Part shown: piece by piece, positions 36,085 through 45,073 of the stretch
Layout of the letters: each line of letters opens with the position of its first letter
How positions within the stretch are numbered: position 1 is the first letter of the stretch
NCBI GenBank assembly: GCA_012517155.1
Contig: JAAYVN010000026.1
Coordinates: 62,001 to 126,000, forward strand
Direction: 5' to 3'
Source: Ignavibacteriales bacterium
GTDB taxonomy: Bacteria > Bacteroidota > Ignavibacteria > Ignavibacteriales > Ignavibacteriaceae
Length of the DNA stretch: 64,000 nucleotides
The notes under the pieces: generated by a model
What the model saw: the letters and a program-made list of their open reading frames with translations, nothing else
Told to the model about the DNA's origin: nothing
Databases searched by the model: none
Program-made: the position numbers and the translations under genes

Positions 36085-39000
36085 ATGAAAAAAATAATTA
36101 TTCTTATAGCAGCAGCGCTAGTCTCAATTCAGGCACAATTTAACGATTTTCATCCGGAACTAAACTGGTTCACAATCAAAGGGGAAAAAGTTGTAGTTCA
36201 TTATCATGAAGGAGCAGAGAGAACCGCAAGAGTTGTATGTAAAATAGGTGATGAAATATGGGGACCAATAACGAGTCTTTACGAATATGAACCTGATGTT
36301 GTGCATTATGTAATTAAAGATATTGATGATTATTCAAATGGCGCCACATATTTTTTTGACAATAAAATTGAGATCTGGACGAGCGCGCTTGATTCTGATT
36401 TAAGGGGTACGCATAACTGGTTAAGGAATGTAATTTCGCATGAGTTTACTCACATGGTGCAAATTCAGGCTTCATTAAAGACTTCGAGGAGAGTTCCGGC
36501 ATTTTATCTGCAGTGGTTAAACTATGAAGATGAAAGAAGACCGGATATTTTGTATGGATTTCCCAATATTATTGTTTCATATCCTTTAGCATCACTTAAT
36601 ATGCCGGCATGGTTTGCCGAGGGAACAGCGCAATACATGAGGAGTGAGTTTAATTATGACAATTGGGATACTCACCGGGATATGATACTCAGGTCATATG
36701 TACTCGACGGGAATATGTTGACGTGGAATCAGATGGGAGTATTTGGAAAAAATAGTCTGGGTAATGAATCAGTATATAACAGTGGTTTTGCATTTACGAG
36801 ATACATTTCTCAAAAATATGGAGAAGATAAATTAAGGGAGATAACTAAGGCTTTAGGGAAGTTGAGTAATTTCACTATAGATGCGGCAATAAAAGATGTT
36901 TTAGGATTAAAAGCGGAAGACATTTATTATGAATGGAAAGAGACTCTAAAAGAGGACTATAATAAAAGATTATCCACAGTTTTACAAAATCTGGTTGTGG
37001 GAGATACACTTATGAAGGATGGGACAGGAAATTTCTATTCATTATTTTCTCCCGACGGTGAGTATATTTTCTTTACTTCAAACAGGGGTTATGATTATTT
37101 AAGCATGTTATCACTTTACAAGTATTCCTTAGAAACAGGTGAGACGGAGTTAGTGAAAGCAGGGGTCAAATCTCAATTCAGTTTTATTCCCGGTACTAAT
37201 AAAATTATCTATTCTAAAATCAGTGATGATAATAATAATTGGTATAATGTGCACGATCTCTATGTTTATGATCTGGGCACTAAGGATGAAACGCGATTGA
37301 CAAACAACCTAAGAGCCGACCAGCCTAATGTATCGGTTGACGGGAAAGAGATTGTATTCATATTTCAGAGAGACGGGACAACAAATTTAGGAATCGTAAA
37401 TATAGAAGGAAAAGAATTCAGGCAAATAACTTTTTTCAATAACGGAGAGCAAGTATATAATCCAAAATATTTGAATGGAAATGAGAGTATTGTGTTTGAT
37501 TATTCCTATCATCACACAAGAGATATTGCGATGGTTAATTCTGATGGGTCTGATCTTAAGTTTATAATTCAAACGGACAAAGATGAAAGGAATCCTTTTG
37601 TTCTTGACTCAAGTACAATTTACTATTCTTCCGACAAGACCGGAATATTTAATGTGTATAAATATAATTTGGAGACGAAAGAAGAGACTCAAATCACAAA
37701 CGTGACTGGAGGAGCATTTATGCCTTCAGTCAGTAATAAAGGAGAAGTCGCTTATTCGGGATACACTTCCGGGGGATACAAAATATTTAAAATTAAAACT
37801 GACAGGTACAAAGATATTCCAGCAGGGAGCTCGTATGTCTGGCTAACGAATCCACCCCTTGAGTCATCAAAACCAAATGGAGATATTGATAATTTCAAGA
37901 TTAATAAATTAAGAAATTTCGATGATCACTCAACTCCAGAGTATAAACAAGAAAAGTATTCGGGCTCATTCAGCAGCCTAATGTTCTTTCCATTCGTCAG
38001 GTATGACAACTATAATACTTCCAACAAATTTACAGAGAAAATTAAACCTGGTTTGTATGTAACATCTTCAGACATGTTGAACAGATATGCAATTTTTGCC
38101 GGAGCATCAATAAACTCAAGAATGGAGAGAGACCTATTTTTACAATTTGAGTACAGGAATAAGCTACCTATACTGTTTAATCTTGGAATTAAACCGGAAG
38201 TATTTCTTGAATTATACAACATATCGCGAAAAGCGGATGTAGATGTATTAATTGATGAATTTGATCCAATAAAGACAGATGTAACATATAGTCTATTTGA
38301 ATTCGATATCGCAGCTAAGCACAAGTTCATTACAAGCAACCAAAACCTTGAATTCAGATATATTTTCAGCAGTTATACTGCAACAATCGGAAGTTTTATA
38401 TTTCCAAATTCCTCTACTTTGTATCCAACAAATTACGATACTTATTTTATAGGAAGTAATTTTCAATTAACCTACAATGCAAATTTTGAATTACCCTATA
38501 TTGACAGTGATATAAATCCCCTTGGAGGGAATATAGAGCTGAAGTATAATTATGAGATGGACAGGTACAATCCTGACGGGGAGTACACAGTTGAAGATGG
38601 AACATTAGTTCCGCAATATAAAAATTTCAAATTTCATAAACTTGAATTAAATACAGAGTTTGGGATGCCGTTATGGAAGTCTCACTCATTGTACTTGAAA
38701 TTAAGAGCAAATACAATATTTGGTCCACCTATTCCTGATTTCTTTGATAGTTATCTGGGAGGCTTGGTGGGAATGAAAGCCTATCCATTCTATGCAATAA
38801 GTGGTAATGAGCTATTCTGGATGAATCTTACTTACAGGTTCCCATTGTTTAGAAATATTGACAAACAGGTAGGGCATCTTTATATTGATAAAATATTTCT
38901 GTCGGTTTATGGAGATTTTGGGAATGCCTGGAACACAAAAATTCCAGCAATAAAAGACTTTAAGAAAGGAGCGGGTGCAGAATTACGATTTGCATTAAAT

Positions 39001-39144
39001 TCATTTTATCTCTTCCCGACGAGTGTTTTTATAAATGCCTCATATGGTTTTGATCGAGTCGAAAGAGTAGTAAGAGATGAAGTGATCAAATATGGGAAAG
39101 AATGGAGATTCTATGGGGGAATTTTGTTTGGATTTGAATATTAA
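36085..39144 (+). CDS. Metallopeptidase–TolB propeller–outer-membrane barrel fusion
   Basis: A signal peptide (1-17) leads a 1019-residue protein. Residues about 60-200 form a gluzincin-like peptidase: H119-EFTH123 with the third ligand E179 in PAWFAEGTAQYM, a normal active site. Residues about 300-610 contain repeated TolB/WD40-like blocks (SLFSPDGEYIFFTSNRG, NVSVDGKEIVFIF, PSVSNKGEVAYSGYTSG). The last 350 residues alternate as barrel strands and contain GGLVGMKAYPFYAISGNELF, like the BamA/surface-antigen barrel. It ends in a Phe-rich strand. The result is a protease displayed on an outer-membrane barrel. It begins 8 bases after the pseudo-peptidase gene. Confidence 0.8.
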   Translation: MKKIIILIAAALVSIQAQFNDFHPELNWFTIKGEKVVVHYHEGAERTARVVCKIGDEIWGPITSLYEYEPDVVHYVIKDIDDYSNGATYFFDNKIEIWTSALDSDLRGTHNWLRNVISHEFTHMVQIQASLKTSRRVPAFYLQWLNYEDERRPDILYGFPNIIVSYPLASLNMPAWFAEGTAQYMRSEFNYDNWDTHRDMILRSYVLDGNMLTWNQMGVFGKNSLGNESVYNSGFAFTRYISQKYGEDKLREITKALGKLSNFTIDAAIKDVLGLKAEDIYYEWKETLKEDYNKRLSTVLQNLVVGDTLMKDGTGNFYSLFSPDGEYIFFTSNRGYDYLSMLSLYKYSLETGETELVKAGVKSQFSFIPGTNKIIYSKISDDNNNWYNVHDLYVYDLGTKDETRLTNNLRADQPNVSVDGKEIVFIFQRDGTTNLGIVNIEGKEFRQITFFNNGEQVYNPKYLNGNESIVFDYSYHHTRDIAMVNSDGSDLKFIIQTDKDERNPFVLDSSTIYYSSDKTGIFNVYKYNLETKEETQITNVTGGAFMPSVSNKGEVAYSGYTSGGYKIFKIKTDRYKDIPAGSSYVWLTNPPLESSKPNGDIDNFKINKLRNFDDHSTPEYKQEKYSGSFSSLMFFPFVRYDNYNTSNKFTEKIKPGLYVTSSDMLNRYAIFAGASINSRMERDLFLQFEYRNKLPILFNLGIKPEVFLELYNISRKADVDVLIDEFDPIKTDVTYSLFEFDIAAKHKFITSNQNLEFRYIFSSYTATIGSFIFPNSSTLYPTNYDTYFIGSNFQLTYNANFELPYIDSDINPLGGNIELKYNYEMDRYNPDGEYTVEDGTLVPQYKNFKFHKLELNTEFGMPLWKSHSLYLKLRANTIFGPPIPDFFDSYLGGLVGMKAYPFYAISGNELFWMNLTYRFPLFRNIDKQVGHLYIDKIFLSVYGDFGNAWNTKIPAIKDFKKGAGAELRFALNSFYLFPTSVFINASYGFDRVERVVRDEVIKYGKEWRFYGGILFGFEY

Positions 39145-40190: not shown

Positions 40191-40925
40191 ATGATTATTA
40201 ATTATATACTTAACTCACAGACCGGTTTAATAAGAACGCAGAATGAAGACGCAGCTTCTTTTTATGACCTTGGGGACTCGGTATTAGCCATTGTATGCGA
40301 TGGAATAGGAGGTAACAAAGCCGGAAACATAGCCAGCCAGTTGGTAATCGATTCAATTTATCCTTTTTTTCAGAAATCAGCTGAAACTGATCCATTGAAA
40401 AAAATTGAAGATGCAGCAATAAAAGTAAATGAATTAGTTATTAATGCAGCTGAAACGCGAAATGAATATGAAGGAATGGCCACAACGGCAGAGATTTTAT
40501 ATATTAAGGATGCAGTTGCATATTGGGGACATGTTGGTGATTCAAGCATTTATTATTTTCAAAATGAAGACCTGATAAAAATTACAAAAGATCATTCTAT
40601 AGTGCAAAAACTCATGGATTTAGGAGCGATCACTGCACGAGAAGCAAAAATTCATCCTCATAAAAACATAGTATTAAGAGCAATTGGCGATAAGACCGGT
40701 TTTGGGATCGATTTAAACTACATGAAACTTAAGACAAACAAAAAATGGAAATTTATACTTTGTACAGATGGGGTGACAGGTGTTATTGACAAGGATGAAT
40801 TGAAGTATTTACTGATTGAGGACGATCTTGAAGGTATATCAGAGAAAATTGAGAAGCTGATTTTAGAGAGGGGAGCTCCTGATAATTATACATACATAAT
40901 TGTAAGCAATAAAGGTTTGAAATAA
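40191..40925 (+). CDS. PP2C-family Ser/Thr protein phosphatase
   Basis: This 244-residue cytoplasmic phosphatase removes phosphate from Ser/Thr using two metal ions. All PP2C signatures are present: RTQNEDA near residue 16, AIVCDGIGGNKAG, GMATTAEILYI, WGHVGDSSIYYF, KFILCTDGVTGVI and GAPDNYTYI with the metal-binding Asp-Asn. No membrane segment is present. It overlaps the kinase gene by one base (TAATG), the classical phosphatase-kinase pair, so it probably dephosphorylates that kinase and its targets. Confidence 0.93.
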   Translation: MIINYILNSQTGLIRTQNEDAASFYDLGDSVLAIVCDGIGGNKAGNIASQLVIDSIYPFFQKSAETDPLKKIEDAAIKVNELVINAAETRNEYEGMATTAEILYIKDAVAYWGHVGDSSIYYFQNEDLIKITKDHSIVQKLMDLGAITAREAKIHPHKNIVLRAIGDKTGFGIDLNYMKLKTNKKWKFILCTDGVTGVIDKDELKYLLIEDDLEGISEKIEKLILERGAPDNYTYIIVSNKGLK

Positions 40926-42835
40926 TGCAACTCAAACCGGGATTCATAATAGAAAATTTTAAGATAGTAAGTATGTTAGGGGAAGGGGGGATGGGTATAG
41001 TCTATAAGGCACTTGATTTAAAGCTTGAAAGATACGTTGCACTTAAAGTATTAAACCCGCAGGCATATCAGAATCCGCAGTTTTTAGAAAGATTTAAGAG
41101 AGAAGCAAAAAACCAAGCAAAATTAAATCATCCAAATCTAGTAGCGGTTTATGGCTTTACAGATCAGTACAAATTGCTTGGAATTGTAATGGAGTACGTT
41201 GAGGGGGAAACGCTGGAGAAGTATATTGAGAAAAGGGGAAGGTTGGATTATTTTGAAGCAATGACAATTATGGAACATATCCTGGCAGGAGTTGGTTATG
41301 CCCATTCCAAGGGATTCATTCACAGGGATATAAAGCCATCAAATGTAATTATAAGCCGAGAGGGGATAGTAAAGATAATGGACTTTGGTATATCAAAGTC
41401 AATGTTTGAAAAGAGTATAACAAGAACTGGAACCAAAATAGGGACACTACTCTATATGAGTCCCGAACAGCTAAAAGCCGAAGAACCAACCAGACAAAGT
41501 GATATTTACTCGATCGGTGTTACACTATATGAAATGGTTGCGGGAATACCTCCTTTTAATTATACTACTGAATTTGAAATTATGGAAGGACATTTAAAGA
41601 AAAATCCACCCAAAATATCAACAGTTGTATCAAATGTACCAGGCGAACTAGATAAGATTATTCAAAAAGCGATGGAAAAGAGTATCTATAAAAGGTATTC
41701 AAACTGCGAATTATTTTTAGCAGATGTTCAGGCATTAATGCGAAAAGCCGAAACATTTAAAACACAAAAAGTAACTGCTCCAGTAAAGAAAAAGAGTAAA
41801 AGCAGCAATATAAAGTTTTATTTGATTGCACTTCTTGTGTTAACATTATTTGGATTACTATTTTATTTCTCATTTGGTTTGATAAAGGATTTCTGGACAG
41901 AGATGAAATCCGGAAAATTTTCAACGGAAGATTCTACTTTTGTACCGTATAAAACAAATCCAGCATATACTAATTTAGGCAATTTGAAGATTGTATCGAC
42001 TGGTACAAATAAGAATTTGAGTTCTGTTTATTTTGTTGACAGACTTTCGGGCTATGCATGCGGAGAAGAAGGGACAATTATCAAAACCGTTGACGGTGGA
42101 GAAAACTGGTTAATGATACCTTCTTTTGATGGAATGAACTTCAACAATCTCTACTTCTTTAATATTTCCGATGGAATAATAATTGGAGATAACGGAGACC
42201 TTTATGTAACAAAGGATAGTGCGACAACATTAAACAAAGTTGCATTACCGGTAGGGGAACGATTGCTTAAGATTTATTTTTATGATAATTATAATGGCTA
42301 TGTAACCGGTGCCAATGGGGTAATTCTTAAAACAAGTGATCAGGGGAATACGTGGAGCCTGACTTCAACGCAAACGAATGAACATATATTGAATATCTTT
42401 TTTACCAACAGAGATCTGGGATTTTCAGTGGGAAGAAGCGGGACAGTATTAAAAACAACCGATTCAGGCAATTCATGGACTCCATTGAAAAGATTCACAA
42501 ATAATTATTTGAGGTGCGTATATTTTATAGATACACAGAAAGGATTTGTTGCAGGGGCGGGAGGTCAAGTATTTAAGACCGAAAATGGAGGGAAGGACTG
42601 GAAAAAGATAGAGACCGAAATTATTTCCGGAATTATCGGGATCAAATTTACGGATGACAAACATGGATTTGCAGTTTCAGGTAAGGGGGAATTTTTATAT
42701 TCTGCAGACAGCGGTGAGACCTGGAACTTAAACAGAACAGGCCGATATGTGAATTTGACTGACATGTCAGTTTCACCAACAAACGATGTCTATTTTTCCG
42801 GTCTAAACGGAATAGTACTTAAGCAAGATAAGTAA
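40925..42835 (+). CDS. Ser/Thr protein kinase with extracytoplasmic Ycf48-like seven-repeat propeller
   Basis: Residues about 12-270 form a complete Hanks-type kinase: GEGGMGIVYK, the ATP-lysine K41, catalytic H133-RDIKPSN, D153-FG and MSPEQ. A Lys-rich linker and one membrane helix (about 297-320) follow. The outer part (about 355-636) carries seven repeats of the type 'YF.d...GyA.G..Gti.kT.dgG.tW' (residues starting near 364), the Ycf48/BNR-like blade pattern, which would close a seven-bladed propeller. Bacterial kinases more often carry PASTA repeats. The ligand is unknown; the location facing the periplasm makes it a sensor. It is coupled to the PP2C gene. Confidence 0.9.
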   Translation: MQLKPGFIIENFKIVSMLGEGGMGIVYKALDLKLERYVALKVLNPQAYQNPQFLERFKREAKNQAKLNHPNLVAVYGFTDQYKLLGIVMEYVEGETLEKYIEKRGRLDYFEAMTIMEHILAGVGYAHSKGFIHRDIKPSNVIISREGIVKIMDFGISKSMFEKSITRTGTKIGTLLYMSPEQLKAEEPTRQSDIYSIGVTLYEMVAGIPPFNYTTEFEIMEGHLKKNPPKISTVVSNVPGELDKIIQKAMEKSIYKRYSNCELFLADVQALMRKAETFKTQKVTAPVKKKSKSSNIKFYLIALLVLTLFGLLFYFSFGLIKDFWTEMKSGKFSTEDSTFVPYKTNPAYTNLGNLKIVSTGTNKNLSSVYFVDRLSGYACGEEGTIIKTVDGGENWLMIPSFDGMNFNNLYFFNISDGIIIGDNGDLYVTKDSATTLNKVALPVGERLLKIYFYDNYNGYVTGANGVILKTSDQGNTWSLTSTQTNEHILNIFFTNRDLGFSVGRSGTVLKTTDSGNSWTPLKRFTNNYLRCVYFIDTQKGFVAGAGGQVFKTENGGKDWKKIETEIISGIIGIKFTDDKHGFAVSGKGEFLYSADSGETWNLNRTGRYVNLTDMSVSPTNDVYFSGLNGIVLKQDK

Positions 42836-42868
42836 GAGTCAGAATTGAAGTATGAAAGAAACTGACCC

Positions 42869-45073
42869 GTGCAAATTAAAATTAAAGAAGGAATTATAAA
42901 GGAAAATATTTTATTTATTTTTTTGGCAGCATTGTTGATGGCAGCTGCAGTATTGCAGTTGACAATTCCGCTTACCAAATTCTTCAGTTTTGAGTATTCG
43001 GTTGTAAACAGTATATTAATTACTTTCTTTATTTCTATCATTACCATTCAAAACCTTCATAAAAAGAATCCAGAATCTTATCGTGATTTCAATACAGGGA
43101 CTGCATCAAATCTGTTTTTATTTTTTATAATACCGCTGATTATAGCTTTTATAAATACAGTTCTTAAAAATCAATGTCCATTTTATCATGGATTGCCATA
43201 TTACTTCACTATTGTTTTTCCTGCAATCTTTGTTGGGCGAGGTATTGGGATTTTTGTATTTTGCGCAATTAGGAGATTTAGAAGTATCGGACTGATTTTT
43301 GTCTATCTTCTTATTCTCACTATTCCTCTTATTGAGTTTTATCTCAACCCACAGGTATATTTTTACAATCCGATTTTTAGTTTTTTCCCAGGAAATATAT
43401 ATGATGAATCAATAAGAGTAGATGTAACATTAATTACATACAGACTAATAAATCTCATATTTTTCGAATCGATTGCAGTAATTTACTTTTTAAGTAAGAA
43501 AATTGAATTTAGAAGGGGAATTATTGTTATATATACTTTGATAACCAGTTTAATTTTCATAATTCTCTCACCTTACTTAGGATTCTCAACCAATATGGAG
43601 AGAATAAAAAGAAAATTACCTGTTTCTGAAGAAACAGCAAATATCAGATTTCATTATGGAAATGAGAGGACGAAAAAGGAAATGAGCTATTCTACTTTTG
43701 AGGCAGAATACTATTATCATGAACTTAGCGAGTATTATAAGACTGAACCGGATAAAAAGATCGATGCCTTTGTTTTCAAGGATAGTGGTGAAAAAAGAGA
43801 TATTTTCGGTGCCGGAAATGCTGATGTTGCAAAACCTTGGATGAATCAAATATATCTATCAGAGCAAACTTTAAATAGAACGTTAAAACATGAAATGTCA
43901 CATGTTTTCACCTCGAAATTTGGTAAATATGTGTTTGAAGTTGCGGACAAAATTAATCCAGTCTTAATTGAAGGAATTGCGACCGCAAGTGAAGGATTTT
44001 ATGATGATTACCCTTTGCATTATCTTGCATTTCAAGCCTATAAGAATGGATATCTCACAGAACTTCCGGAATTATTTTCGGGATTAAACTTTTTTGCTAA
44101 AGCATCTTCGTCGTCATATCTAACTTCAGGATCTTTTGTAAAATTCTTAGTTGATAAATATGGTATAGAAAAATTCAAGTTACTTTATCGGGATATAGAT
44201 TTTATGAAACATTATGGGAAGGATATTGCAACTCTTAATAAAGAGTATATTGAGTTTATAAGCATACAGGATTTTCCTTCAAACAAAGCAGTAGCCAATT
44301 ACTATTTTGGTCGAAAAGGGCTTATACAAAAGAACTGTCCCAGATACATTTCAGCAAAGACGGAAGAAATTTTCGAATTAATAGCAAAAAGGAATTATCT
44401 CGATGCAAAAGAGATAATTTCAGAATTAGAGTTAAAAAACACAAGTTGGGCGTTGACTTACGCGATGATTGAATGTAATCAGGGATTAGGGGAAATCCGT
44501 TCATGTTTGAGATACATTGAAAATAAAGAAACAACTTATAAAGGAACTGCATACGAGGAAATACTAGCTATCCGCAAAGCCGATATGCTATTTTTAGATG
44601 ATCAAACTGATAAAGCAATGAATATTTTAGTAAATATTCTGAGCACCTCATCTGTGCACAGAGTCTACTTTTTAGCTAAAACAAGAATAATATTAAGTGA
44701 AAAAATGGTAATCAAAGAATATATAATGGGAAACGAAGAAACAAGAGCACACATTTTTAAGAAGATATTTCTGCAGACGAGTAATATTTCTTTAATACCA
44801 GCAATACAGGATAAAATAAATTATCAAGATAAAAAAAATGACTGGATCTTAGAAGTAGTATTGAAGGGAACCGTCAAAAACAACTATGAAAAATATGCAC
44901 TCATTAAACTTTCGGAACTTCTAGCGAGGCAGGGAAATTATGGAAAGGCAAAGCAAATATTAGATAAAGCTAAAAAACCAGAAGGGGAATGTATTTTTAA
45001 TGAATTGTTAAAAAGTGTTGAACTTAAATTATTAAGACTATCAGAAGGGAAAACACAATTACAAAATGAATAA
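42869..45073 (+). CDS. Polytopic membrane metallopeptidase (peptidase MA-like) with helical C-terminus
   Basis: The 734-residue protein begins at GTG (weakly supported; no Shine-Dalgarno). Residues about 10-240 hold around seven membrane helices. A periplasmic or cytosolic gluzincin domain follows with H341-EMSH345 and E368 in LIEGIATASEGF, a complete HExxH plus distal Glu site. The last 250 residues are helical with repeating 30-40 residue blocks (LAKRNYLDAKEIISELE, ALIKLSELLARQGNYGKAKQ), like TPR repeats. The substrate is unknown. It overlaps the cca gene by 8 bases and follows the kinase by 33 bases. Confidence 0.72.
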   Translation: MQIKIKEGIIKENILFIFLAALLMAAAVLQLTIPLTKFFSFEYSVVNSILITFFISIITIQNLHKKNPESYRDFNTGTASNLFLFFIIPLIIAFINTVLKNQCPFYHGLPYYFTIVFPAIFVGRGIGIFVFCAIRRFRSIGLIFVYLLILTIPLIEFYLNPQVYFYNPIFSFFPGNIYDESIRVDVTLITYRLINLIFFESIAVIYFLSKKIEFRRGIIVIYTLITSLIFIILSPYLGFSTNMERIKRKLPVSEETANIRFHYGNERTKKEMSYSTFEAEYYYHELSEYYKTEPDKKIDAFVFKDSGEKRDIFGAGNADVAKPWMNQIYLSEQTLNRTLKHEMSHVFTSKFGKYVFEVADKINPVLIEGIATASEGFYDDYPLHYLAFQAYKNGYLTELPELFSGLNFFAKASSSSYLTSGSFVKFLVDKYGIEKFKLLYRDIDFMKHYGKDIATLNKEYIEFISIQDFPSNKAVANYYFGRKGLIQKNCPRYISAKTEEIFELIAKRNYLDAKEIISELELKNTSWALTYAMIECNQGLGEIRSCLRYIENKETTYKGTAYEEILAIRKADMLFLDDQTDKAMNILVNILSTSSVHRVYFLAKTRIILSEKMVIKEYIMGNEETRAHIFKKIFLQTSNISLIPAIQDKINYQDKKNDWILEVVLKGTVKNNYEKYALIKLSELLARQGNYGKAKQILDKAKKPEGECIFNELLKSVELKLLRLSEGKTQLQNE

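Follow-up and report, generated by a model that had tools for sequence, protein, structure and literature searches.

The window analyzed here, a 64,000-nucleotide stretch of an Ignavibacteriales genome, encodes a receptor serine/threonine kinase whose sensor domain is a Ycf48-like propeller. The protein (636 amino acids; 40925..42835, + strand) was assigned by Pfam, NCBIfam, and ortholog matches and consists of a kinase domain, a transmembrane helix, and the propeller, in that order. Its gene is conserved across the order, forms an operon-like pair with an upstream PP2C phosphatase gene, and adjoins murA in most relatives. We give about an even chance to the interpretation that the protein belongs with the PrkC/PknB-type receptor kinases of the envelope, has a propeller in place of the PASTA repeats, and most likely serves to control peptidoglycan synthesis.

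The Hanks-type kinase domain (residues 9–275; 40949..41749, + strand) was recognized from its catalytic residues and PknB fold, and matches Pfam Pkinase at 4.6e-56. Residues K41, E60, H133, D135, D153-F-G, and P180-E181 are identical in all 41 aligned sequences, and R134 is kept in 40 of the 41. Among solved structures, those of PknB are closest (top match: Z 36.4, rmsd 1.2 Å, 258 aligned residues, 36% identity). The best NCBIfam match is likewise a PASTA-kinase model, NF033483, at 338.9 bits for the whole kinase, which is below the curated cut-off of 450; three orthologs score from 298.9 to 344.1 bits. A reading as an anti-phage kinase was rejected, since the PADLOC matches (PD-T4-6 and mad6) are generic and cover the kinase domain alone.

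The core of the single transmembrane helix (residues 301–320; 41825..41884, + strand) is the most hydrophobic 20-residue stretch. Across the 41 sequences, the best 20-residue mean hydropathy between the two domains is at least 1.8 (average 2.4), and beyond residues 270–365 no such stretch exceeds 1.64. These results agree with the preliminary description, which had seen a complete Hanks kinase followed by one membrane helix. The flanks of the helix in the window protein carry net charges of +5 (N-terminal) and 0 (C-terminal), and in 39 of 41 orthologs the N-terminal side is more positive than the C-terminal side (mean net charge +3.6 versus −0.3). Based on this charge bias, the kinase is predicted to lie inside, and the propeller probably sits in the periplasm, outside the inner membrane, rather than in the cytoplasm. 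A full-length AlphaFold2 model built from the alignment of 41 shows the kinase, one long helix, and the propeller (pLDDT 88.8), with a pTM of 0.49 that leaves the orientation of the two domains to each other uncertain.

Modeling of residues 346–636 with AlphaFold2 yielded a closed seven-bladed propeller (pLDDT 93.7, pTM 0.90), the structural check that had been proposed for this ectodomain. The Ycf48-like propeller proper, as delimited with AlphaFold2 and Foldseek, spans residues 365–636 (42017..42832, + strand), and its seven inner strands recur at an exact 41-residue period. Blade 7 has no outer strand of its own and ends after its third strand; DSSP on both models indicates that it is completed by an N-terminal strand at residues 354–357 (41984..41995, + strand). 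The ectodomain matches Pfam PSII_BNR (Ycf48) at 3.4e-29. The preliminary description had counted seven consecutive sequence repeats in it. Seven blades are indeed predicted, but the full motif is clear in only four or five of them. Scored as G..G, two hydrophobic residues, T/S, D/N, G, and W, the strict form fits four blades (starts 380, 462, 503, and 544), and a fifth (start 585) fits when Ser is accepted in place of the initial Gly; in blade 2, the motif is without its terminal Gly and Trp. In its loose form, the motif has five matches in the ectodomain versus none in 20,000 shuffles of that domain. Thus, the view of this protein as a receptor kinase with a Ycf48-like ectodomain is borne out by the model, and the periplasmic side by prediction.

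The kinase protein has no PASTA match in Pfam, the propeller standing in that place, and no NHL match among Pfam families at E ≤ 0.1; a PHROGs search with the ectodomain also gave no match. The 12 best Foldseek rows are all Ycf48 chains or a complex holding Ycf48 (E 2.9e-18 to 1.4e-14, TM 0.78–0.82, 18–20% identity). With VIA-align, many unrelated propellers tie (Z 26.9–28.1, rmsd 2.6–3.2, 278–289 aligned residues) and Ycf48 is absent from the best 50 matches; this method does not single out a closest propeller family.

The protein shares with Ycf48/HCF136 the seven-bladed fold and the Pfam family PSII_BNR, and these likenesses, together with the Foldseek result, are what might suggest that the propeller acts as Ycf48 does, in the assembly of a photosystem or another membrane complex. 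We regard such a role, which the preliminary description had raised, as very improbable; for glycan sensing, also raised there, there is no specific indication. Ycf48 is described as a free-standing protein of the lumen that most cyanobacteria lipidate and that docks on D1 via a conserved Arg-rich patch (PMC11449106). In contrast, the propeller here is the sensor of a kinase, and the Ycf48 equivalog model NF010237, with a cut-off of 326 bits, gives the protein a score of 113 bits. Only one column of the propeller alignment has Arg in at least half of the 41 sequences (24 of 41), and seven columns have Arg or Lys in at least 70%, a comparison made column by column. Moreover, Melioribacter roseus, an isolated member of the same order that very likely carries the propeller kinase, is reported to be without photosynthesis genes (PMC3534657), and similar repeats are present in many other frames of the window's genome.

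The best conserved residues beyond the Gly/Trp motif fall in blades 4 and 5 (42386..42631, + strand). Position 504 is W in 35 of 41 sequences and R in the window protein, Y528 is invariant (41 of 41), and position 530 is always K or R (41 of 41). From conservation, this compact set is the best candidate for a binding site. Average conservation of the D-A loops does not exceed that of the A-B loops (permutation p 0.45), and therefore no broad binding face is apparent. The idea that loss of W504 marks murA loss was rejected, because three loci without murA (L082, L084, and L100) retain W. Averaged over 40 orthologs, identity to the window protein is 60% for the kinase, 17% for the linker and helix, and 33% for the propeller; the sensor thus changes faster than the enzyme.

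A search for the same architecture, as had been proposed, found orthologs throughout the order. Among 164 genomes of the order, 118 (counting the window's own) contain a match to the window kinase at E ≤ 1e-90, one in each. Of these matches, 107 extend to at least residue 605, and 8 of the 11 that end earlier do so within 25 bases of a contig end. Orthologs outside the order were found neither in a class sample (294 genomes, E ≤ 1e-80; 52 matching, all within the order) nor in a phylum sample (395 genomes, searched with a profile; 36 above 735 bits, all within the order), the best three or four candidates per genome being scored in both. The next match in the phylum sample, at 383 bits, covers positions 1–334 of 631. 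A scan of genome contigs returned one full-length relative (L050), one kinase-only match, and one propeller-only match.

The pairing of the kinase with a PP2C phosphatase, also proposed previously, is confirmed by Pfam matches to PP2C_2 (40191–40925) and Pkinase (40925–42835) on the + strand. The phosphatase (244 amino acids; 40191..40925, + strand) is Stp1/IreP-like. It matches PP2C_2 at 3e-13, and its best library match is NCBIfam Stp1_PP2C_phos (NF033484; 7.1e-63), at 212.2 bits against a curated cut-off of 230. The two frames overlap by one base, which ends the stop codon of the PP2C gene and begins the ATG of the kinase gene. A PP2C gene lies directly 5′ of the kinase in 20 of 20 loci of family f1, to which the window's genome belongs, and in none of 20 loci of families f2 and f3. 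Relatives of the PP2C (E ≤ 1e-15) are found in 76 of 80 f1 genomes versus 4 of 84 f2/f3 genomes.

We compared the surroundings of the kinase in 40 fetched loci, 20 from f1 and 20 from f2/f3, in which murA, tig, and clpP were identified by NCBIfam (L081) or by BLAST (the remaining loci). In 34 of the 40, murA follows the kinase downstream in the same orientation, and in 32 the distance is at most 150 nucleotides. In the window, a short gap (42836..42868) occupies this position without murA, and for this reason the preliminary description did not name the gene as a neighbor. The gap is followed by a conserved downstream gene (42869..45073, + strand) for a membrane protein that has several helices, a peptidase-MA-like domain (HEMSH), and a tail resembling TPR repeats; its Pfam Peptidase_MA_2 match (2.1e-07, 31.4 bits) is just below the cut-off of 32.4. 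This gene is present downstream in 38 of 40 loci, including five f1 loci and one f3 locus without murA, and all 38 neighboring relatives keep HExxH. BLASTP found no significant match between its product and the peptidase-MA protein encoded upstream (36085–39144; best E 2.1). A CCA-transferase-like gene (our query label "PolyA") is downstream in 38 of 40 loci. The divergent tig gene is upstream in 29 of 40, and clpP accompanies tig there, also divergent, in many relatives. Since the genes around the kinase, between tig/clpP and the ABC transporter, largely keep their order, the adjacency to murA may be a frozen order.

Among 61 f1 genomes, a sample that overlaps the fetched loci, 33 carry both kinase and murA, 11 the kinase only, 14 murA only, and 3 neither. 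Where both are present, they share a contig in 29 of 33 genomes, and murA then lies no more than 200 nucleotides downstream in 27 of the 29. The 11 of 44 kinase-bearing genomes without full-length murA include the window's own and a single-contig genome, as well as two (G010 and G021) whose assemblies are cut near these genes; MurA therefore cannot be the sole target. Because kinase and murA are absent independently of each other in f1, we view their pairing as old and common, although not obligatory. Loci around murA were fetched for 11 of the 14 murA-only genomes, the murA of one (L116) being taken from a separate genome search for that gene. The peptidase-MA/TPR gene is kept in all 11; a PP2C frame is kept in eight (one a 144-amino acid remnant) and absent from two, and the locus L109 ends at a contig edge. 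The PP2C frames left beside murA as orphan phosphatases in these kinase-less genomes (L111–L114 and L116–L119) include one, in G046 (L119), with an internal stop.

PASTA kinases such as PrkC, PknB, Stk1, and IreK likewise combine a PknB-like kinase domain, a single helix, and a C-terminal sensor predicted to lie outside, and the Stp1-like PP2C adjoining the kinase in f1 recalls their PrpC/IreP-type phosphatases. However, their sensor is built from PASTA repeats instead of a seven-bladed propeller, and the f2/f3 relatives here have no adjoining PP2C. The lineage of the window, unlike the hosts of PASTA kinases, is not Gram-positive. Propeller-sensor kinases as such are already known. Mycobacterium PknD is described as a transmembrane kinase with a six-bladed propeller sensor (PMC6213207), made of NHL repeats according to a second source, which also describes PQQ- and WD-repeat bacterial kinases (PMC1262709). 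PknD thus shares a transmembrane Hanks kinase with a propeller sensor but has six NHL blades in place of seven Ycf48-like ones, and the PQQ- and WD-repeat proteins share the fusion of kinase and propeller repeats with another repeat family. Within the scope of our literature searches, what looks new is the Ycf48-like sensor, its conservation across the order, and the linkage to murA. These searches of open-licence papers, directed at this architecture and at kinases of the lineage, turned up no description of a Ycf48-like kinase sensor, which is weak evidence.

We infer the following scheme for the location, ligand binding, activation, and substrates of the kinase. A cytoplasmic kinase would be anchored by one helix, with its propeller in the periplasm binding a putative partner, most likely a protein or peptide and possibly a wall-related ligand. 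By analogy to PrkC and PknB, binding would change the oligomeric state and thereby kinase activity, and in f1 the co-encoded PP2C would reverse the phosphorylation. Most likely, the kinase would regulate the synthesis of peptidoglycan, acting on the MurA step or close to it, with further targets besides. Three systems described in the cited sources act at this point: PrkA and PrpC set the MurA level via ReoM and ClpCP in Listeria (PMC7286690), IreK acts on MurAB through IreB in Enterococcus (PMC12077105), and PknB controls the MurA step through CwlM in mycobacteria (PMC7286690, PMC12077105). The nearness of the kinase domain to PASTA kinases and of the phosphatase to Stp1/IreP, together with the adjoining murA, suggests that the propeller kinase helps to tune wall growth, the sole link to MurA being gene order. 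Against this, 14 f1 genomes retain murA without the kinase, and PP2C does not adjoin the kinase in the 20 f2/f3 loci.

The same observations could describe a receptor kinase of the envelope that has a general role and is not specifically tied to the wall, whose place beside murA merely reflects an old, stable order running from tig/clpP to the CCA-transferase, TolC, and ABC genes. The surrounding order is largely kept too, kinase and murA have been lost independently, and kinase-less murA loci keep the peptidase-MA/TPR gene (11 of 11) and mostly a PP2C frame (8 of 11). However, the junction between kinase and murA is tight (32 of 40 within 150 nucleotides, same strand), and kinase domain and phosphatase are nearest to the group that controls MurA elsewhere. 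We take this alternative seriously while leaning against it. It is also conceivable, but unlikely, that the kinase mainly controls the peptidase-MA/TPR membrane protein or the TolC/MFP/ABC exporter. The persistence of the peptidase gene downstream (38 of 40 loci, including those without murA) and of its HExxH (38 of 38) would fit such a role, whereas its retention in all 11 kinase-less loci and its sub-threshold Peptidase_MA_2 match would not, and we know of no link between this protein and phosphorylation.

In the window's genome (99.65% complete), neither murA nor murB gave a match at E ≤ 1e-3. Among the 61 f1 genomes, a murB match is missing from 7 of the 14 lacking full-length murA versus 2 of the 47 with murA. 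Tannerella forsythia, described as lacking MurA and MurB and needing external MurNAc (PMC7670621), offers a precedent. A division/wall cluster of the window's genome (L107) holds four Mur-ligase-type genes along with mraY-, ftsW-, and murG-family frames.

PASTA matches occur in all 160 genomes of the order that were examined, and among the matches listed the frames are 242–310 or 524–677 amino acids long; other genomes of the order may have PASTA kinases. The window's genome has four, three on a stand-alone protein and one on a penicillin-binding protein of the division cluster. Its three Hanks kinases above the Pfam cut-off carry the propeller, a PEGA domain, and no other recognized domain, respectively, and none has a PASTA match. 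The stand-alone three-PASTA protein (about 250 amino acids; L134:4385-5143 and L135:5298-6020) is encoded immediately upstream of rpe, and a gene for a diadenylate cyclase of CdaA type is close by, with the same neighbors in both loci read (the window's genome and G129, likely that of M. roseus). In Firmicutes, prkC is found near rpe. We speculate, as an improbable elaboration, that the wall sensor is split: The propeller kinase would adjust the activity of MurA after reading the stand-alone PASTA protein or a piece of peptidoglycan held by that protein. This would amount to a PrkC circuit in which a docking propeller has taken the place of the detached wall-binding part. Under the main interpretation, an order-wide kinase of the PASTA-kinase group with another sensor fold and close linkage to murA would mean that Ser/Thr kinases govern the first committed step of wall synthesis well beyond Gram-positive bacteria, here in the Bacteroidota/Chlorobiota group, and by way of a sensor that works differently. 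In the sources cited above, PASTA-kinase control of MurA comes from Firmicutes and the PknB/CwlM route from mycobacteria.

The previously suggested link to type IX secretion was not sustained. It relied on upstream genes that are not conserved neighbors: In the fetched stretches of 40 relatives (E ≤ 1e-8), the queries DUF5683 and M6i found no match and PepMA1 found one. Within the window itself, 33017–36076 matches the NCBIfam model "T9SS-dependent M6-like inactivated metalloprotease" at 934.8 bits (cut-off 600). A scan of the window's genome gave 39 matching stretches, comprising the window gene, 2 to the kinase part, and 36 to the propeller part. Frames with similar Ycf48-like repeats and no kinase lie on contigs C2, C3, C27, C34, C38, C90, C96, and C115, among others.
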